From NCBI GenBank assembly GCA_019695265.1, contig JAIBAJ010000019.1:1-44444 (forward strand): DNA of 44,444 bases, written 5' to 3'. Under the pieces are notes generated by a model. The model was given only the letters and a program-made list of their open reading frames with translations, was not told the origin of the DNA and made no database searches. Position numbers and translations under genes: made by a program. Shown in pieces: positions 1-40,685 of this stretch. How positions within the stretch are numbered: the stretch's first letter is position 1; each line of letters begins with the position of its first letter. The stretch is from Bacteroidia bacterium (GTDB taxonomy: Bacteria > Bacteroidota > Bacteroidia > JAIBAJ01).

Positions 1-146
1 CCGCCCAAACTAGCTTTTTGCTAAACCACCAGCAACTTGCAAGGGCGTTCGGGTCACGCTATCGGCTGTAATCCTCGTCCCACTTGGCTAGCGCCGCGTG
101 GTCCTGTGGGTTACTTGCCTCTATCGTTGCCCGAGGCACAACCTAC
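1..146 (-). repeat. Structured intergenic repeat, copy A (left end cut by window)
   Basis: This is the first of six copies of a dispersed structured element. Read on the minus strand, it carries the core CGGGCAACGATAGAGGC, then GTAA, an apical hairpin, TTAC, then GCCGATAGCGTGACCCG. The usual GTAG/CTAC pair of the family is here GTAA/TTAC, a compensatory change that keeps the stem. The apical part has CCAC pairing with GTGG around a loop (GCGGCGCTAGCC...) shared with the copy at 7566. The 3' arm (CGCCC pairing with GGGCG) reaches base 1, so the GC-rich tail lies outside the window. The element sits about 160 bp beyond the dapD stop codon. Confidence 0.85.
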
Positions 147-3174: not shown

Positions 3175-4857
3175 TTATTGAACTTGCAAAATTAAACAAC
3201 CATGATTCTGCAAACCGGAAGGAGCAGTGGTATTCCCACCTGCATAAAAACTATCGAAGGCATATTTACAAGCCCTAACTGATATAGTGTAGGTTCCCGC
3301 TGTGGAAATATCAACGTATCCGGTCATTGACCATAAACCAATTGTACCAGACCAGCCACTTGCATCATTTACATCTACTACCTGATACATTTGAGGTATA
3401 CCAACTCCGTTATTAAAGACTTGAATTACACAACCTGAACCTCCGTAAGTAGAAGAAAAGGTTTCCAAATTACCCGTTGTAAAAATATTTATCCTTGCAG
3501 GAACTGTTGTTATAGTGATGCTTTGAGTTAAATTGGTTATTTGAGTAAAAGTTGGATAGGTGGACGAAACCGATGTTCGAGTTGCATAAGCACCATAATA
3601 GGAATTAAAGGCACTAGCCCCGGTTGCTCCGGTCGCTCCGGTGCTGCCATTTGCACCGGAAGGCCCTGTAGGTCCGGTTGCCCCATTAGTACCACTTGCT
3701 CCTGACGGACCAGTTGGACCGGTTACCCCATCAACTCCACTTGGACCAGTAACACCTGTTACACCTGTAGCTCCTGTTGCTCCATTTGCTCCACTTGATC
3801 CTGATGGACCGGTTGGACCGGTTACCCCATCAACACCACTTGGACCAGTAACACCGGTTACACCTGTTGCTCCATTAACACCACTTGCTCCTGATGGACC
3901 GGTTGGACCGGTTACTCCATCAACACCACTTGGACCAGTAACACCAGTTACACCTGTTGCTCCTGTTGCTCCAATAGCACCACTTGCTCCTGATGGACCA
4001 GTTGGACCGGTTACCCCATCAACACCACTTGGACCAGTAACACCAGTTGCTCCGGTTGCTCCATTATTTCCTGTTGCTCCTGTTGCACCGGCAACACCAC
4101 TTGGTCCTGCGACACCAGTTGCTCCTGTTGCTCCATTATTTCCTGTGGCTCCTGTGGCTCCTGTGGCTCCTGTGGCTCCTGTTGCACCGGCAACACCACT
4201 TGGTCCAGCAACACCGGTTGCTCCGGTTGCTCCATTACTTCCTGTGGCTCCTGTGGCTCCAGTTGCACCAGCAACACCACTTGGTCCTGCGACACCGGTT
4301 GCTCCGGTTGCTCCATTATTTCCTGTGGCTCCTGTGGCTCCTGTGGCACCAGCAACACCACTTGGTCCAGCAACACCGGTTGCTCCGGTTGCTCCATTAT
4401 TTCCTGTTGCTCCTGTGGCTCCATTAACACCACTTGGCCCAGTTGCACCAACAGCTCCTGTGGCTCCTGCACTGCCTGTTGGACCGGTTACTCCATTCGC
4501 ACCGGTTACCCCAATTGGTCCTGTAGGTCCTGTAACTCCGGCAATTCCATTGGTTCCAGTTGGACCTGTAGGACCTGTAGGACCAATTGCATAAACCCAA
4601 ACAGTTCCATCAAAATACCAAAATCCATCCAAATTATTTGTCTGGTATATCATCAACCCTGTTGCGGGTGATACAATGGCATTTTTTTGTGCCTCAGTCA
4701 TTCTTGGAACCAAAAAACCTTGGTTACCTGATTGAAGTTCAAGTATGGCAGAAGGGTTCGGATTATTAGTTCCAATTCCCATATTCTGCTGAGAATTAGC
4801 CAAAAAGGATATAGAAACTAATGATCCAATTAATAGAGGGAGTAATTGTCTTTTCAT
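3175..4857 (-). CDS. Secreted collagen-like protein 1 (Gly-X-Y repeats with a C-terminal beta head)
   Basis: The 560-residue protein begins with a signal peptide ([22 protein letters not shown]), then a 70-residue domain shared by all three collagen-like proteins here ([11 protein letters not shown] ... [12 protein letters not shown] ... IYQTNN ... [11 protein letters not shown]). Residues 92 to 413 are almost unbroken Gly-X-Y triplets, mostly GAT, GPT, GPS and GVT. The last 146 residues are beta-rich and end in HGCLILQVQ, resembling a C1q/TNF-like trimer head. By analogy with Bacillus BclA, it probably forms a surface or secreted triple-helical filament, and the Thr in the Y position could be glycosylated. 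No T9SS sorting domain is seen. An ATG 18 codons further upstream (4911) lies inside the preceding gene's terminator and was rejected. Confidence 0.88.
4142..4177. repeat. Perfect 9-bp tandem repeats within collagen-like gene 1
   Basis: Four perfect head-to-tail copies of cctgtggct lie in the collagen-coding stretch, encoding Gly-Ala-Thr triplets on the minus strand. Around them, longer units containing gctccattatttcctg recur several times between about 4050 and 4420. Changes in copy number would stay in frame and alter stalk length. Confidence 0.9.
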
Positions 4858-4894
4858 TTTATTGCCGACCAATGTAATAATAAAATGAATTGAC

Positions 4895-4928
4895 AAAAAA
4901 AAAGCCTTCAATTTGAAGGCTTTTTTTT
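4895..4928 (-). terminator. Intrinsic terminator of collagen-like gene 2
   Basis: AGCCTTCA and TGAAGGCT form a strong stem (4903-4921) with A-rich and T-rich flanks on both sides. On the minus strand it follows the stop codon of the gene ending at 4940. It separates collagen-like genes 2 and 1 and overlaps the discarded ATG at 4911. Confidence 0.9.
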
Positions 4929-4939
4929 AATATGCAAGC

Positions 4940-6805
4940 TTAATGTTTAATTACAATTATACTCGAGTTTTCTGTTCCGGCAACAGGAGAAGACACTCTC
5001 CATAATTTATAAAAATAGGTACCTGCAGACAATCCGGATTCACGTTCACTAATGCTATTTGAAATAAAAGTATTTGCTGCCGGTGGAGTTGAACCTGAAT
5101 TTCCAATCAATGTTCCGGCGCTTCCAGAGCCGGATACATTATCTCTGGTTAATTTAGTAAAAACATCACTTGTGGTTGATGTTTTTACTGAATAATTACA
5201 ATTAACTATAGCAGTTTCACCTGCTGCTATTGTTACCGATGCTTCTCCTACAAATACGTAGGTTCCAGTGCTTGTGGAAATGGTTAATACCGCAGAATTT
5301 AAAGTTCCCACATCTCCTGATAAATCGTCAGTAATTGTAAAAGTCCAAACACCATTCGGACTTGTTCCTGCAAAACTTGACATTGGCTGCTCGGGTATAA
5401 AACTACCTGCGAAAGGCGCTGTACCTGCTGTAATGGAACCACTTCCTGCATCCGTAAAAATGGTATTGGAATAATTATCCCCGGAGCCTCCATTGTCTGA
5501 GCTTAAATCAATGGTAACTCCTCCTCCGGGATTCGACAAAGTCATATCCAAATCATTATCGAAGGTATGTGTAATATTAACAGTCAGAATAACATCGCAA
5601 ACAGTTCCGGTTAGTCCGGTAACATTGAATGTGGTGCTTTGAGTTGCCAAATCGTTAATTGTCAATGGCAAGGTAAGTGCTGTGAAATTAGTCCCTAATC
5701 CACAACCTGAACCTGCTGTTAAAACATTCGAATTAGAATCGAAAGAAGAAGATGACAAAATCCCTGTTGGTCCTGTTGGTCCTGTTGGCCCTGTTGATCC
5801 TGTTGATCCTGTTACTCCGCTAGCACCGGTAGGTCCGGTTGCCCCTCCACCACCACCGACAATGACTACAGAGTTTCCATTTGAAATACTCAAGGTATTT
5901 GTTCCGGAATTGTAGCTTAAAGTTTGTGAATCAGGGCCCGTTGGTCCAGTAACTCCATCAACACCGCTTGGACCGGTTGCCCCTGTTGCTCCAGTTGGTC
6001 CAACACCACCTGTGACACCATCAACTCCACTAGGACCAGTTGCACCAGTTGGTCCTGTAGGACCGGCAGATCCTGTAGGACCAACCCCTCCTGTAACACC
6101 ATCAACCCCACTCGGCCCGGTGGCTCCAGTTGGCCCGGTAATACCTGTAGGTCCAACACTGCCTGTAACACCATCAACTCCACTTGGACCTGTTGGCCCA
6201 GTTGAACCTGATAATCCAGTAACACCGGTTGCTCCTATCGAACCTGTAGCTCCATCAACTCCACTTGGACCTGTAGCTCCTGTAGCACCGGTAATACCTG
6301 TTGCTCCAACCAAACCTGTTGAACCTGTAGCACCAGTAGCTCCGGTAGCTCCAGCCAAACCTGCTGGACCAGTAGCTCCAACTGCTCCTGTTGCTCCTGT
6401 TGCTCCTGTTGACCCTGACAATCCAGTTGGCCCTGTCGCACCGGCTGCTCCTACAGCTCCGGCAACTCCGGTTGGCCCGGTAATACCTGTTACTCCATTT
6501 ATTCCTGCTGGTCCAGTAGGGCCTGCCGGACCAATAGATAACACCCAAATTGTTCCATTAAAATACCAAAACCCGGTTTGATTATTCGTCTGATAAATCA
6601 ATAGGCCTGTGGCAGGTGCTACAATAGAATTTTTTTGTGCTTCCGTCATCCTTGGAATCAAAATCCCTTGTGTTGAAGAATTTAATTCTAACAATGAAGA
6701 TGCATCGGGGGTACTGGTTCCAATACCCATATTTTGCTGGGAAAAAGAACATAATGGCAAACTAATTGCCGCCAAAATGATTAGCTTATTAATTGTATTT
6801 TTCAT
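4940..6805 (-). CDS. Secreted collagen-like protein 2 with P/Homo B-type domain
   Basis: The 621-residue protein has a signal peptide ([22 protein letters not shown]), the shared N-terminal domain ([34 protein letters not shown]), then a Gly-X-Y region from about residue 92 to 289. A beta segment ([19 protein letters not shown]) interrupts it before a second short collagen stretch ending near residue 347. Residues 365 to 515 form a proprotein-convertase P-type jelly roll ([37 protein letters not shown]). P domains in bacteria are usually attached to secreted proteases, and none is attached here. The last 100 or so residues ([14 protein letters not shown] ... [10 protein letters not shown]) form another beta domain. 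A long-range surface or matrix role is inferred. The -7 region (TACTTTTA) is imperfect. Confidence 0.88.
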
Positions 6806-7565: not shown

Positions 7566-7728
7566 AGGAGGTTGCGCATCGGGCAACGATAGAGGCAAGT
7601 AGCCCACAGTCGCACGCGGCGCTAGCCAAGTGCGGCGAGGACTACAGCCGATAGCGTGACCCGAACGCCCGTGCAGGTTGTTTTGGATTTAATAAAAAGC
7701 TAATTGGGCGGAGGGGGCCCGCATAAAA
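7566..7728 (+). repeat. Structured intergenic repeat, copy B
   Basis: This copy has the full core (CGGGCAACGATAGAGGCAAGTAG ... CTACAGCCGATAGCGTGACCCG, in pieces), the CGCCC/GGGCG second stem and the tail GGAGGGGGCCCGC. The apical hairpin is type I: CGCAC pairs with GTGCG around the same loop as copy A, where the pair is CCAC/GTGG. Outside the hairpin it is nearly identical to copy E, including about 40 bases of flank after the tail, so B and E are recent duplicates. No gene lies inside it. Confidence 0.9.
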
Positions 7729-7829
7729 ATTATAAAAAGTCGTTTTCTCCTAATTGATTTTTCTACAGACTTAATTTATTCCAGTCGAATCACATTTATT
7801 GAAATCAAATCTTTTACACTACTATTGAA

Positions 7830-8303: not shown

Positions 8304-9857
8304 TTAAGGTCTAATTTCGATAACATTAAGGTAAGAGTGTCCGAGGAAAAATGATTCATTGCTGCCGGAATATCCGTTTGACATCCAAAACTCTACAGCA
8401 TAGGTATTACTTCCTGCTGGTGCACCACTATCATTTATTGACATATCAACATTTCCGGTAATAATGTTATATGCAACTCCTCCTTCAGAAGTCCAGGCAG
8501 CAGTTCTTCCAATTTCAGTTCCATTTCTGGTAATTCGAAATGCTATAATCTCAGACTCGTAAAAATTCAAAAAATCTGTTCTCCATTTGCCGGTAAAAGT
8601 TACTAAAACATTGGAACCGGATGTAATTGTCCTAGTTACTGTAAGTCCGGTTGCTTGAAAAGTTCCAGGCGTATAGCCTGAGTTTACAGATGCAGCATTG
8701 CTATAGGTTCCGGTATTATTACTAACCAATTGCACTTCTGTTGTGCGAGTAGCAGTCGAAATCCCTTGACCGGTAGTGGATGAACTTCCGGTTGCACCTG
8801 TGGCACCTGTGGCACCTGTGGCACCTGTAACACCTGTGGCACCTGTAGCACCATTACTTCCATTTGCTCCGGTTGGGCCGGTTGGGCCTGTAGCTCCAGA
8901 TCCGGAACCGTTTAAAATAACGGAATTACCATTGCTTATGGAAAGTGTGTTTGTGCCTGAATTAAATGATAAGGTCTGAACATCTGGACCAGTTGGACCT
9001 GTTGGGCCGGTTACACCATCAACACCTGATGGACCTGTAACCCCGGTAGATCCGGTGGCACCTGCTAATCCGGTTGCCCCTGTTACCCCATCTGCTCCGG
9101 AAGGTCCTGTTGCTCCTGTTGCTCCGGCAGCTCCAGTTGCACCAGCGGCTCCGGTTGCTCCGGTTAAGCCTGTAGGTCCGGTAACACCATCTGCTCCGGA
9201 AGGACCAGTAACTCCCGTTGCACCAGCGGCTCCGGTTGCCCCGGTCAATCCGGTTGGCCCGGTTACGCCATCAACACCTGATGGTCCAGTTACCCCGGTA
9301 GCACCAGCTGCTCCAGTTGCTCCAGTTGCTCCTGCGGTTCCTGTAGCTCCAGTTGCTCCAGTTGCTCCAGCCAGGCCGGTAGCCCCGGTTGCTCCAGCCA
9401 CTCCAGTTGCTCCAACAGCGCCTGTTGCGCCTGCAGCTCCAGTTGCTCCGGCCACACCGGTTGCCCCGGTTGCGCCAACAGCTCCGGTTGCGCCGGTTGC
9501 ACCTGCAGCACCAACTGAACCAGCAGGTCCTGTTGCACCTGTTGCTCCCGCCAAGCCATTACTTCCGGTTGGTCCGGTTGGTCCGGCAGGGCCCATTGAA
9601 AAAACCCAAACCGTGCCATCAAAATACCAAAATCCAGCTTGGTTATTGGTTTGATAAATTAATAAACCTGTGGCAGGTGAAACAATCGCATTCTTTTGTG
9701 CTTCCGTCATCCTGGAAATTAACAAACCTTGATTGGTTGAATTTAACTCAAGTAAAGAGGAAGGGTCGGGATTGGCTGTACCAACTCCCATGTTTTGCTG
9801 AGAATTGGCAGTGTAACCAATAACCAGACCGAAAACTGATAGTAAATAACGCTTCAT
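8304..9857 (-). CDS. Secreted collagen-like protein 3 (Gly-X-Y repeats with a C1q/TNF-like head)
   Basis: The 517-residue protein has a signal peptide ([19 protein letters not shown]), the shared N-terminal domain ([34 protein letters not shown]) and a long Gly-Ala-Thr-rich collagen region. As in protein 2, the collagen is interrupted once by [18 protein letters not shown], then continues briefly. The final 155 or so residues ([19 protein letters not shown] ... [11 protein letters not shown]) form a beta sandwich resembling C1q/TNF heads, which in collagen-like proteins trimerise the stalk. The chosen ATG lies 33 bases after a perfect -7 element (9891-9898). An ATG 12 codons upstream (9893) falls inside that promoter. 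The gene is followed five bases later by the small secreted protein gene. Confidence 0.88.
8795..8830. repeat. 9-bp tandem repeats within collagen-like gene 3
   Basis: Three perfect copies of cacctgtgg are followed by one degenerate copy, encoding Gly-Ala-Thr triplets on the minus strand. The run could expand or contract in frame. Confidence 0.85.
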
Positions 9858-9890
9858 TAAATGTTTAGAAAATGGGTTTGAAAAGACTGG

Positions 9891-9898
9891 CAAATCTA
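9891..9898 (-). promoter_or_regulatory. -7 promoter element of collagen-like gene 3
   Basis: TAGATTTG on the minus strand fits TAnnTTTG and lies 33 bases before the ATG at 9857. No good -33 TTG is seen at the usual distance. Confidence 0.5.
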
Positions 9899-16773: not shown

Positions 16774-19125
16774 TTGAACTATCAACTAAAATATGGATTA
16801 TTAGGAATTGTATTGACCATGATACTTTATTCGTGTAGCTCGACCCGAAGGTTGAATTCCAATGAATACCTGTTAGTTAAAAATGAAATAGTACTTAATA
16901 ACCCCAAAGTATCAAAAGAAGATCTTAACTCACTTATCAAACAAAAGCCCAACCGTAAAATATTCGGTTACTGGCGATTCCATTTGATGCTTCACAATTG
17001 GGGAAGTGGTAAAAACGATTCAACAAAATTCAAACGTTGGCTTCGGAAAATAGGTGAAGCCCCGGTTGTGCTGGATTCCTTCCAAACGCAACGAACCAAG
17101 TCTCAACTTTTGGCCTATTTGAAAAATAAAGGATATTTTCATGGAAAAGTCAGCGATTCGGTTACTGTAAAAAAGAAAAAAGCTAAAGTGCATTATTACA
17201 TCGAACCGGGCATTCCATACACCATTCGTAATTACACGTATGCGGCCGATGATTCCATCCTTATTTTAATTGCTCACAGCGCAGAACGTATCAATAAATT
17301 AGTATTTCCCGGACATGTTTTTGATTCGGATATCCTGGACGAAGAAAGAGCCAAACTTACCCGTGAAATGAAAATGAAAGGGTATTTTTACTTTGAAAAA
17401 GATTATATCCGTTTCGATGCAGACACCTCGGTTGGCAATCGTCAGGTTGATTTGAAATGCATCATCAATACCCCCCTCGTTCCCGATTCCATTAAACCGG
17501 ATTCTCTAGTCCCGGGACACCATCAGATTTACAAACTGGGTAAAATTTTCATTCATACCCAATTTAACCCCAAAGCATTAGAATTTGGGAAACTCGATAC
17601 CATCGTTTATAATGGATATATTTTCACCTACCAAAAGAAACTTAAATTCAATCCGGAAACCCTGCTCGATAATATCTTTCTGCATTCCGGACGTGGTTAC
17701 CAAATAAATCAAATTGAACAAACTTACAGACGACTTGGAGACCTCAAAAACTTTCGGTTTACCAATATTTCTTTTGCTCCCGATACCAGCCGAAAAAATG
17801 AAAACATTCTCCAAACCTATATTGCATTAACACCTTCGCCAAAGCAGGCTTTTAGCTTCGATTTCCAGGGTACCAATACCTCCAGCAACCTCGGTATTTC
17901 CTTTAACGTAGGCTACCAAAACCGAAATATTTTTACAGGTGCCGAAATGCTTGAAGTAAAGCTCCTCGGCGGATTGGAAAACCAAATCGTATCCAGTAGC
18001 GTGGACCGAAGAATCTGGAACCTCCCCTTCAACACCCTGGAAGGCGGGGGAGAGATCAACCTCTATTTCCCTAAATTCATTTTGCCCTTTGGTCTCTCCA
18101 AATTGTCTCAAAGAGTTAGTGCTCCCAAAACCCAGTTAAAAACCCAATACAATTTGCAACAACGTCCGGATTTTACCCGAAACAACCTGCGATTCTCCTA
18201 CGGAATTAGCTTCAAAAAAGGTAATTTCCATAAGTTTTTTCTAAACATCTATGAAATTAACCGGGTAAATGTGTACGACCAAAGTCAGGCATTTACCGAC
18301 CGCCTCAATGCCATTAACGACCTGGCAGTGCGCTTTTCCTATCAACCTCACTTTACCACATCCACTAATTTTACCTACCAATACAGCAACCAAATTGTCT
18401 CCAAACTAAGAAGCTTTTCTTACTTCCGTTTTTACCTTGAATCCGCCGGTAGCACGGTTTACGGAATTGCCAAATTAGCCAAAGCCAAAACCGATACGTC
18501 CGGAAATTACCTCATTGGAGGAATTCCATTTTCACAGTATATCAAAACCGAAATCGATTACCGGCATTATTTTATCATCAATACCTGGAGCCAATTTGTT
18601 GTTCGATTTAACGGTGGTTTAGGAATTCCTCTTACCAATTTAAAAACTCTTCCGTATGAGAGTAACTTTTTCGGTGGTGGAGCCAATGGTATCAGGGCCT
18701 GGAAATTTAGGCGTTTGGGTCCGGGTTCATCCGAAGCCTCCCTGCTCGATCAGTTTGGAGATACCAAACTGGAATTCAATGCAGAATACCGTTTTGGAGT
18801 TTACAAATTCTTTAAAGCTGCCCTTTTTGCCGATGCCGGAAACGTGTGGTTTACCCCGTGGAATGCCATTAAAAGTCCGAAAGGAACCTTTGCCTTTAGC
18901 CGCTTTTACAAGGAAATTGCAGTGGGTGCCGGCTTAGGCTTGAGACTTGATTTTAACTTCTTCATCATCCGTTTAGATGTTGCCTTAAAACTTCATAATC
19001 CGGTAAAACCCGAAGGTCAACGTTGGTTCTCTGACTTGACTTACCAAAAAGACGAAAATTCACCTGCTAAATTTAATATCTTAAAAGTGCCTGAATATCA
19101 AATCGGTATTGGTTATCCTTTCTAG
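16774..19125 (+). CDS. TamA/BamA-family Omp85 outer membrane protein, lipoprotein type, TTG start
   Basis: The 783-residue protein has a lipoprotein signal (GLLGIVLTMILYSCSST), POTRA-like repeats over about residues 25 to 330 (EDLNSLIKQKPNRKIFGYWRF, TKSQLLAYLKNKGYFHG, RRLGDLKNFRFTNISF) and a C-terminal beta barrel. The barrel carries the Omp85 signature GGGANGIRAWKFRRLGPG near residue 630 and ends in an aromatic residue (GIGYPF), as barrel proteins do. A lipid-anchored Omp85 protein is typical of Bacteroidota. TTG at 16774 is the only start that keeps the signal, since an in-frame TAG lies three codons earlier. Together with the preceding TamB-like gene it should form a two-protein envelope assembly or lipid transport system. 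Confidence 0.92.
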   Translation: MNYQLKYGLLGIVLTMILYSCSSTRRLNSNEYLLVKNEIVLNNPKVSKEDLNSLIKQKPNRKIFGYWRFHLMLHNWGSGKNDSTKFKRWLRKIGEAPVVLDSFQTQRTKSQLLAYLKNKGYFHGKVSDSVTVKKKKAKVHYYIEPGIPYTIRNYTYAADDSILILIAHSAERINKLVFPGHVFDSDILDEERAKLTREMKMKGYFYFEKDYIRFDADTSVGNRQVDLKCIINTPLVPDSIKPDSLVPGHHQIYKLGKIFIHTQFNPKALEFGKLDTIVYNGYIFTYQKKLKFNPETLLDNIFLHSGRGYQINQIEQTYRRLGDLKNFRFTNISFAPDTSRKNENILQTYIALTPSPKQAFSFDFQGTNTSSNLGISFNVGYQNRNIFTGAEMLEVKLLGGLENQIVSSSVDRRIWNLPFNTLEGGGEINLYFPKFILPFGLSKLSQRVSAPKTQLKTQYNLQQRPDFTRNNLRFSYGISFKKGNFHKFFLNIYEINRVNVYDQSQAFTDRLNAINDLAVRFSYQPHFTTSTNFTYQYSNQIVSKLRSFSYFRFYLESAGSTVYGIAKLAKAKTDTSGNYLIGGIPFSQYIKTEIDYRHYFIINTWSQFVVRFNGGLGIPLTNLKTLPYESNFFGGGANGIRAWKFRRLGPGSSEASLLDQFGDTKLEFNAEYRFGVYKFFKAALFADAGNVWFTPWNAIKSPKGTFAFSRFYKEIAVGAGLGLRLDFNFFIIRLDVALKLHNPVKPEGQRWFSDLTYQKDENSPAKFNILKVPEYQIGIGYPF

Positions 19126-19194
19126 TATTTCTTCAAGAAAAGCCTATTTTCTAAACTTCATTATCCTATTCGTAAAGGTATTTTTAAAAACTAG

Positions 19195-19362
19195 TTGGCG
19201 GGTCCCATTCGCCTACCAGCCGGTATAAAAACTCCAACTGAACTACAAGGCTCATGGTCGGGCTATCGGCTGTAGTCCTCGTCAACCGCAGTACCGAAAG
19301 GATTCGGTACTGCGGTTTCCTGTGGGCTACTTGCCTCTATCCCTACCCGAAAGAAGGTGCAA
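19195..19362 (-). repeat. Structured intergenic repeat, copy C
   Basis: On the minus strand the core reads GGGTAGGGATAGAGGCAAGTAG ... CTACAGCCGATAGCCCGACC. The inner triplet pair is GGG/CCC (19341-19343 with 19260-19262) where four other copies have ACG/CGT, a double compensatory change. The apical part is a perfect 15 bp hairpin (19284-19298 with 19303-19317) with a 4-base loop, unlike any other copy here. The tail reads GGCGAATGGGACCCGCC. It lies head to head with copy D between convergent genes. Confidence 0.9.
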
Positions 19363-19483
19363 GTTCGAACCACCATACATGATCCAAAAGGAACAACCAT
19401 CATAAGCTTAAATTAATACAATAGTCAAAAATCAAATTTACATCGATATTATTGACAATTAAAGTTCAAAAAACTATACTAAG

Positions 19484-19635
19484 GGCTTGCACCCGGGGCA
19501 ACGATAGAGGCAAGTAGCTTTAAGGCAACGCAGCGATTAGCGGAGTTGTCTTAAACTACAGCCGAAAGCGTGACCCGAACGCCTTGCACAAAGTATGAAT
19601 TTTGCAACTATTTGGTTGGCGGAAGGGGGCCCCCC
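19484..19635 (+). repeat. Structured intergenic repeat, copy D
   Basis: This copy has the core GGGGCAACGATAGAGGCAAGTAG ... CTACAGCCGAAAGCGTGACCCG in pieces, with GATAG changed to GAAAG. The apical hairpin is type II, with TTTAAG pairing with CTTAAA around a conserved AGCG...TTAGCGGAGTTG loop. The tail reads GGCGGAAGGGGGCCCCCC. Its 5' flank, CTTGCACC, is also the 5' flank of copy C, so the pair forms a divergent, head-to-head arrangement about 120 bases apart. Confidence 0.9.
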
Positions 19636-19666
19636 AACTTATAATAAAAGAATATTTAAACTGAAT

Positions 19667-20701
19667 TTATTCGTTAAAAAAAACCGTAGTTGCACCCATT
19701 CCATACCGATTATAATCTCCATTGGTAATTGTTACCGCCGGATAAGTACGTAAAATTTTCAATGTCTCCTCTTTTAATACGCCGGCACCAACCCCATGAA
19801 TAAAAGTCACCTTTTGGGTGTGCTCTGCCATTGCCCGATCCATCACACGCCTCACTTCCTTGAGCTGAATCATCAACTTTTCGTGGTTGCTTAGTCCCAC
19901 AAAATAGGTTTCCAGCTTTTCAATGTGCAAATCTACCTCCAATTCTACCTTCACAACCGGAACCAAACGAGGGGCAGGAACCTTGATTTTGGGCTTCTCC
20001 ATGGTAATCGGATGTGAAACTATTTTCTTCTCGGCAGCCAAAACCAATAAGGGTTTTGAAAAATTAGAATAGTCTAGAAACAAATTGGAATTGAATAACT
20101 TAGGTGACTTTACTTTCAACAAATCATCTACCACCTCCACTGATTTTTTAATAGGCAAATGATAGGCAATTGCCTGCAAGGAAATCGTTTTCAAGTCACC
20201 TAAATCTTCCGGAAAGAAAGTAGAAACGATGCAATTTGAAAGGGCATCAATGGAGCCATGAAAAAGCGTATACCAATTCCCTGCCTTCTCTGAACGAATA
20301 GAAAAATAATAAGGCCAAGGATCAGAATTAATTAAAAATAAATCCCAATTCTGAATGGAATTTGATTGTTTATTCTGAACAAAACCACATTTAAGATGAG
20401 ACAATTTATGGACTTTATTCAATTGAAAACTATCGTTTGAAACAGATTTTAAATCAGGTATTGAAATAGGCTTAACAGCCGTAACAGGCTCGGGTTTATT
20501 CGTACTTAGAGGTACAGGGGCTACTTGAGAGGGTGAAGCAAGTGATTTGGCGGACTTTACTTTTACCAACTGACTTAGGGGATAAGGAACTTCAAATCCC
20601 AAGTCATTTTTAACAAGCACCGACACTTTATCGAGCAAACGAATGATCATTCCGTGCCCTTCCTCATTTAAAAACCTAACCTCGTCACCCGGAGAAAACA
20701 T
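19667..20701 (-). CDS. DUF2027 and Smr domain protein
   Basis: The 344-residue protein starts with an SH3-like segment (MFSPGDEVRFLNEEGHGMIIRLLDKVSVLV), a charged and proline-rich linker, a central DUF2027-type domain (residues about 90 to 230) and a C-terminal Smr domain (VELEVDLHIEKL ... QKVTFIHGVGAGVLKEETLKIL). Smr domains act as DNA or RNA nicking nucleases or nucleic-acid binders. Here the HGVGAGVL loop and the DLHIEKL motif are intact. The protein is typical of Bacteroidota and its role is unknown. The start at 20701 is preferred because a perfect -7 element (20706-20713) lies directly before it, leaving almost no leader. An ATG six codons upstream would fall before the promoter. Confidence 0.88.
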   Translation of the reverse strand: MFSPGDEVRFLNEEGHGMIIRLLDKVSVLVKNDLGFEVPYPLSQLVKVKSAKSLASPSQVAPVPLSTNKPEPVTAVKPISIPDLKSVSNDSFQLNKVHKLSHLKCGFVQNKQSNSIQNWDLFLINSDPWPYYFSIRSEKAGNWYTLFHGSIDALSNCIVSTFFPEDLGDLKTISLQAIAYHLPIKKSVEVVDDLLKVKSPKLFNSNLFLDYSNFSKPLLVLAAEKKIVSHPITMEKPKIKVPAPRLVPVVKVELEVDLHIEKLETYFVGLSNHEKLMIQLKEVRRVMDRAMAEHTQKVTFIHGVGAGVLKEETLKILRTYPAVTITNGDYNRYGMGATTVFFNE

Positions 20702-34601: not shown

Positions 34602-34765
34602 GGAGGTTGCGCATCGGGCAACGATAGAGGCAAGTAGCTCCAAGCCAACGAAGCGGTTTAGCGGAGTTGGCTTGGACTACAGCCGATAGCGTGACCCGAA
34701 CGCCCGTGCAGGTTGTTTTGGATTTAATAAAAAGCTGGTTGGGCGGAGGGGGCCCGCATAAAAAG
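34602..34765 (+). repeat. Structured intergenic repeat, copy E
   Basis: This is the clearest copy. Stems: CGGG (34615-34618) with CCCG (34695-34698); ACG (34621-34623) with CGT (34690-34692); GGC (34629-34631) with GCC (34682-34684); GTAG (34634-34637) with CTAC (34677-34680). ATAGA/GATAG forms a purine-rich internal loop. The apical hairpin is type II, CCAAGCCAAC pairing with GTTGGCTTGG. A second stem (CGCCC with GGGCG) and the tail GGAGGGGGCCCGC follow. It is nearly identical to copy B outside the apical hairpin. Confidence 0.92.
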
Positions 34766-40489: not shown

Positions 40490-40521
40490 AAAGACTGTCT
40501 TTTTAGGCAGTCTTTTTTTTT
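40490..40521 (+). terminator. Intrinsic terminator of GAPDH
   Basis: AAAGACTG (40490-40497) pairs with CAGTCTTT (40508-40515), followed by a long T run. It lies 20 bases beyond the stop codon and just before repeat copy F. Confidence 0.92.
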
Positions 40522-40532
40522 ATTATATCAAT

Positions 40533-40685
40533 TTGGCGGGCCCCATTCGCCACCAAAATCAGGTTGAATTCCCAACATTCACATAGGCGAATGGTCGGGC
40601 TATCGGCTGTAGTCCAAGTCCACTCCGCTAAATCGCTGCGTTTACTTGGAGCTACTTGCCTCTATCCCTGCCCGACGCAACTACA
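40533..40685 (-). repeat. Structured intergenic repeat, copy F
   Basis: On the minus strand the core reads CGGGCAGGGATAGAGGCAAGTAG ... CTACAGCCGATAGCCCGACC. The inner pair is GGG/CCC (40666-40668 with 40597-40599), matching copy C, where copies A, B, D and E have ACG/CGT. The apical hairpin is type II, with CCAAGT pairing with ACTTGG. The second stem is the longest seen (CCATTCGCC with GGCGAATGG) and the tail is GGGGCCCGCC. It lies between the convergent GAPDH and aldehyde dehydrogenase genes. Confidence 0.9.

Follow-up and report, generated by a model that had tools for sequence, protein, structure and literature searches.

Flavo-1 is a structured element of Bacteroidota genomes that has remained an orphan 'sRNA' since 2010. 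As described (RF01705; Weinberg 2010), it occurs in Bacteroidia hosts in many copies per genome and combines a P2 core (GAUAG..GGAAA / GCGGAUAGC) with a variable apical hairpin, and all of these features are shared, on the same strand, by the repeats considered here. Transcriptomics of F. psychrophilum found Flavo-1 hits indistinctly in sense or antisense, many of them without transcription (PMC9723704), a pattern more in keeping with a DNA repeat than with an sRNA. The second point of comparison is provided by REP/REPIN sequences with RAYT, which are intergenic, folded and high in copy number, form inverted doublets, prefer convergent regions and may be present or absent between relatives. 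The present element resembles them in each of these respects and differs from them in its length (142 nt against 20–65 nt) and in the position of its GTAG, which is paired inside P2 and not located at the hairpin foot, where REP/REPIN carry a GTAG/GGAG-type tetranucleotide.

The window (the whole stretch of 44,444 nucleotides that was analysed) belongs to a 3.83 Mb draft assembly of 213 contigs and holds six copies of the repeat, A to F. These are probably long, divergent members of a Flavo-1 superfamily, that is, non-coding, structure-conserved, dispersed intergenic repeats, present in well over 150 copies, which would spread as REP or MITE-type repeats do and swap their tips between copies; the tip itself would be a tolerated structural extension atop P2 and not a guide.

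Relation to Flavo-1 and copy number

A search of the window against Rfam at the gathering score gave no match, copies B, C and D matched nothing in Rfam at E values up to 10, and the window copies did not reach the covariance-model cut-off of RF01705 (at least 42 bits). The relationship was seen from the other side, with a model (R1) for which the long copies of this genome were the sole input. R1 matches weak relatives in nine other genera, of which some also score as RF01705 (up to 60.1 bits, at locus L069); it retrieves RF01705 members, with the P2 core sequence and pairing of that family, and the joint alignment covaries. Moreover, there is a continuum within this genome, from type III, which is bona fide Flavo-1 (L322–L330; 61.4 bits), through type II (31–40 bits), to type I, the abundant form, which falls below detection (RF01705 cut-off, 42). 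Copies C and F have the base and the P3 helix of the intermediate type II. The window element is, then, a long divergent relative of Flavo-1 and not a formal member of the family: P1 and P3 close a junction that is missing from the Rfam model, the middle stem is GGCAAGTAG/CTACAGCC, the score lies under the Rfam cut-off and the copy number is far higher. RF01705 itself is present in 47 genomes, this one included, out of 119 sampled from the same class, with up to 36 copies scored.

Bona fide Flavo-1, the intermediates and a longer three-way-junction form, in well over 150 copies, are found within one genome. The long form adds two helices to the known Flavo-1 structure, with tips that appear to recombine freely, and the continuum points to a repeat-element nature of Flavo-1 that can be tested. 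The tips of Flavo-1 elsewhere take other forms, such as inserted palindromes in genome G021 and simple hairpins in G064. Genome G028 (L062, L072, L076, L080, L084) has Flavo-1-like tips with a nested conserved hairpin around GGCGACCTTGGGAGCC, which is another apical module.

R1 matches at least 150 copies in the genome. A first parse of 163 copies assigned 48 tips to class 1, 75 to class 2 and 33 to class 3, leaving seven others, and in a later parse with more loci (176 copies, some of the loci picked by their tip) nearly all tips belonged to these three classes or were simple hairpins; additional copies occur beyond those parsed. There are 80 occurrences of the 15-mer from the class 1 loop and 29 of the 14-mer from the class 3 loop, against none of the reversed-letter controls, so that the recurrence of shared tips is far beyond chance. 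Contigs of the draft end inside the repeat (at window position 1 and at the starts or ends of, for example, C51, C89, C93, C113 and C123); the repeat thus breaks the assembly, and the counts of copies and pairs are underestimates. Around the core, the copies of this genome have weakly conserved flanks, extending over 85 bp on the upstream side and 60 bp on the downstream side, with the pattern TTGCAG..ATAGATAC..AAGTTGG.TTA upstream and CATA..AAG.ATT..AAAAAA downstream. These flanks are part of the amplified unit in this genome and were not seen in other genera.

Folding of the core and the apical tips

Thirty copies fold into a three-way junction of helices P1 (CGGGC/GCCCG), P2 and P3 (CCC-GAA-CGCCC .. 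GGGCG-GAG-GGG). P2 (ACG-AUAGA-GGC-AA-GUAG .. CUAC-A-GCC-GAUAG-CGU) contains the GTAG/CTAC segment and an internal loop that could form G.A pairs, and is topped by the variable tip. Among the copies of this genome alone, eight pairs are changed on both sides. When relatives from other genera are included, both-side changes occur in 24 of 27 pairs against 13.9 in shuffles, a number reached by none of 500 shuffles, in an alignment that was fitted to the structure. Within the stems of all the genome's own copies, G.T outnumbers A.C by 55 to 16, or by 51 to 6 without one ambiguously aligned pair, many of the cells in both counts not being independent; since G.T is much the commoner of the two, the annotated strand is the folding strand. 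A pseudoknot joining the upstream TTGCRC to the P3 loop and a distal pairing in P3 were also considered, and both were rejected because they show no covariation.

The sequence-only reading had described a constant core with discrete apical modules, and this arrangement is found in all six copies of the window. Copy A (2–133, minus strand), which has a type I core, is truncated by the contig start, as the contig begins within the repeat, and its tip (72–110) is of class 1. Copy B (7580–7721, plus strand; 168 bits with R1) is a type I core with the complete P1/P2/P3 junction, and its class 1 tip (7603–7641, plus strand) has the stem TCGCAC/GTGCGG and the loop GCGGCGCTAGCCAA. The loop GCGGCGCTAGCC is common to copies A and B, and the loop AGCG..TTAGCGGAG is common to copies D, E and F, both as had been claimed. 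Copy D (19495–19633, plus strand) has a type I core and a class 3 tip (19518–19555, plus strand). Copy E (34615–34756, plus strand), also type I, has a class 3 tip (34638–34676, plus strand) with 11 perfect pairs, TCCAAGCCAAC/GTTGGCTTGGA. Copy F (40537–40674, minus strand) has a class 3 tip (40613–40651, minus strand) sitting on its type II base; its 3' end is abutted by a hairpin with a T run (40491–40522, plus strand) that resembles an intrinsic terminator and would belong to the upstream gene.

Copy C (19199–19349, minus strand) has the P2 base GGG/CCC and the P3 helix CCATGAGCC/GGCGAATGG of type II. Its tip (19276–19326, minus strand) consists of a frame, CCCACAGG..GACGAGGA, which encloses the perfect 15-bp hairpin with a 4-base loop that had been noted before, located at 19284–19317 (34 nt; on the minus strand, AACCGCAGTACCGAA-(4)-TTCGGTACTGCGGTT).

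A constant scaffold with a variable tip recalls a guide-like RNA whose tip bears an exchangeable specificity, as the sequence-only reading had proposed. The tips, however, fall into a few stereotyped classes repeated dozens of times and not into a diverse set matching targets, and their changes preserve the structure: in the stems of classes 1 and 2, pairing is kept by compensatory changes, which speaks for structure rather than targeting (class 3 varies too little). Nor did the target search that had been suggested give an informative match, as exact matches to the tips of classes 1 to 3 are missing from viral contigs, and a search with a whole copy against viral contigs, phages and plasmids was negative. 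The only tip match is an 18-mer of copy C that five viral contigs contain; in L375, the contig that was inspected, the match does not extend into the rest of the hairpin. A guide or targeting role of the tips was rejected on these grounds and is very improbable indeed.

Exchange of modules between copies

Copies B and E had been described as almost the same sequence except for the tip, which turns out to be a half-match: they are 94% identical over 7634–7738 and through the core, so that the identity covers only the core and the right side, and their upstream flanks are unrelated 5' of about 7566. In the comparison of tips with cores across the genome, which the sequence-only reading had proposed, almost all tips fall into the three classes and the simple hairpins, and the class of a tip is nearly independent of the other segments of its copy; tips that track the core perfectly, which had been named in advance as the refuting outcome, were not found. 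Among 53 pairs of copies with right arms at least 80% identical, 32% have the same tip class, against a base rate of 37%, and nearest neighbours are of the same tip class in 48% of cases, against 38% at random. Mantel correlations are positive among the flanks and P3 and are not positive with the tip. After correction for copy divergence all segments are weakly linked, the tip a little less than the others (r of.045–.058 against.07–.09), and the stricter claim of zero tip linkage was dropped.

Every tip type occurs on both base types, class 1, for instance, on 51 type I and six type II cores; one simple hairpin, GCCCCAAACCCTTTTGGGGC, is identical on type I and type II cores; and tips, middle stems and base types are found in many combinations. 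These observations support the conclusion that modules have been exchanged between copies, the exchange of tips being part of a general mosaicism of the element. The earlier proposal of tip exchange is supported by the near independence of the class and by the presence of the same tips on different cores and middle stems, but the tip has no special status, since the whole element is a mosaic. The exchange is likely to have gone by way of the constant blocks, by recombination or gene conversion, and the two blocks that flank the tip, GATAGAGGCAAGTAG and CTACAGCCGATAGC, would guide the swapping of tips.

Another way of looking at these data is to consider the tip classes as old lineages, without any exchange, in which the other segments have merely lost their phylogenetic signal. 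The copies are indeed old and, outside the junction, near saturation (the flanks have a mean identity of about 0.5), some of the closest pairs of left flanks have the same tip class, and the weak residual linkage of the tip (the nearest-neighbour excess and r up to.058) points in the same direction, so that the lack of linkage could partly be erosion. Against this, the closest right-arm pairs share their class no more than chance predicts, and identical tip loops, as well as one identical simple hairpin, are found on both type I and type II cores. The two-core result weakens the reading without exchange, which appears improbable.

Placement, mobility and possible partners

The copies favour intergenic DNA, most often between convergent genes. 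With genes called by simple ORF rules, copies for which both neighbours were called lie in convergent (58), tandem (45) and divergent (11) contexts, and the gene on the 3' side converges on the element in 119 of 156 copies, at a median of 77 bp from its stop codon. In genome G021, gene terminators stand directly behind the 3' end of the element at several loci. Of 29 close pairs, 27 are inverted with facing 5' ends and spacers mostly of 87–515 bp; copies C and D are an example, with a spacer of 145 bp. This arrangement would follow if a convergent region contained two elements and the 3' end of each lay where a gene ends. In type I/type I pairs, eight cases and a ninth (L391) combine one class 3 tip with one class 1 or 2 tip, and the exceptions are L260, whose copies are separated by 1.7 kb, and L250, in which a hairpin tip occurs. 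Dissimilar arms may be required so that no perfect palindrome arises, but assembly breaks at palindromes could give the same bias. The notion that such heterotypic pairs represent fixed left and right ends was given up, as any tip can be found in type I/II pairs and far fewer copies belong to class 3 than to class 1 or class 2. The genes between distant inverted pairs were likewise dismissed as cargo, being ordinary genes (L,D-transpeptidase-like and proline-dehydrogenase-like ORFs, with translations judged by eye).

Two further features of the window were noted. Just upstream of copies D and C, at 19399–19480, strong matches of the sigma-70 kind are oriented oppositely, with TTGACA-17-TATACT on the plus strand and TTGACT-18-TATGAT on the minus strand, and the region 19100–19700 contains seven such sites of sigma-70 type against 1.1 expected. 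Promoters of Bacteroidota usually deviate from this pattern. Separately, three long ORFs on the minus strand (3175–4911, 4940–6805 and 8304–9893) contain 9-base-periodic repeats of the collagen-like G-X-Y type and have a related 277-bp stretch in common.

The placement bears on the view implied by the Rfam 'sRNA' label, in which the element would be a transcribed functional RNA, convergent to the neighbouring gene and acting at gene 3' ends (on termination, on RNA processing or by antisense protection), and its tip an extension that either binds a protein or is specific to the species. Compensatory evolution, the excess of G.T over A.C on one strand, the converging 3'-side genes close to their stop codons and the promoter-like sites upstream of copies C and D agree with such a role, and a cellular function could likewise account for the strong conservation of the core. 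On the other hand, the orientation bias is weak in other genomes (12:8 in G064 and 9:7 in G021), three sampled copies are missing in a congener, and the F. psychrophilum hits lie on either strand relative to transcripts, many of them untranscribed (PMC9723704). On balance, a functional RNA of this kind seems doubtful.

The missing copies are Flavo-1 sites of G064, a genome of another genus, that have no element at the matching place in the congeneric genome G100; the intergenic DNA at these sites is diverged, and none of them is a clean empty site whose junction is unchanged. There is no convincing excess of direct repeats around the element, so the target-site duplication expected of a MITE was not found, and no reverse transcriptase domain was found in this genome. 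Repeats derived from group II introns or other retroelements are similarly structured, have an A-rich tract 3' of their end and often adjoin terminators, as the window element does, but the latter was rejected as a retroelement because both the target-site duplication and the reverse transcriptase domain are lacking. With its inverted intergenic doublets and convergent bias, the element fits a REP-like dispersed intergenic repeat.

If the likeness to REP/REPIN extends to the mechanism, the elements would be sites of a Y1 (HUH) transposase cutting the folded single strand, most likely of the Bacteroidota/Cyanobacteria subclass 1.2 (Y---NQ--HH). Among 32 Y1 genes of genomes that carry the element, six have a copy no more than about 310 bp away, always with its 5' end facing the gene, which is the same arrangement as that of the inverted pairs, and the absence of a target-site duplication agrees with such an enzyme. 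Subclasses 1.2 and 2.6 have been described among the Y1 proteins of Bacteroidota, the genes of the latter lying beside 'atypical secondary structures' (PMC6006769). When 80 loci with relatives of subclass 1.2 (704 kb) were tested blind, the result was nevertheless negative, with three R2 hits, none of them strong beside the gene, in genomes most of which may lack the element, and subclass 1.2 was rejected as a general partner; the two Y1 genes of this genome, moreover, are flanked on one side at best. We regard this mechanism as unlikely.

A broader proposal is that Flavo-1 and related elements, instead of being sRNAs, are mobile, single-strand-folded repeats typical of the phylum Bacteroidota, spread by a Y1-type enzyme, with the apical stem-loop as an exchangeable cassette and inverted pairs whose two arms stay different (a class 3 tip opposite a tip of class 1 or 2 where both elements are type I); it is tentative and, as a whole, somewhat speculative. 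Arrays of short palindromes such as GACCCCGAAGGGGTC adjoin Y1 transposase genes at two loci (L086, 1995–2255; L095, 1220–1380), and these arrays are possibly the real REP-type partners of those genes.
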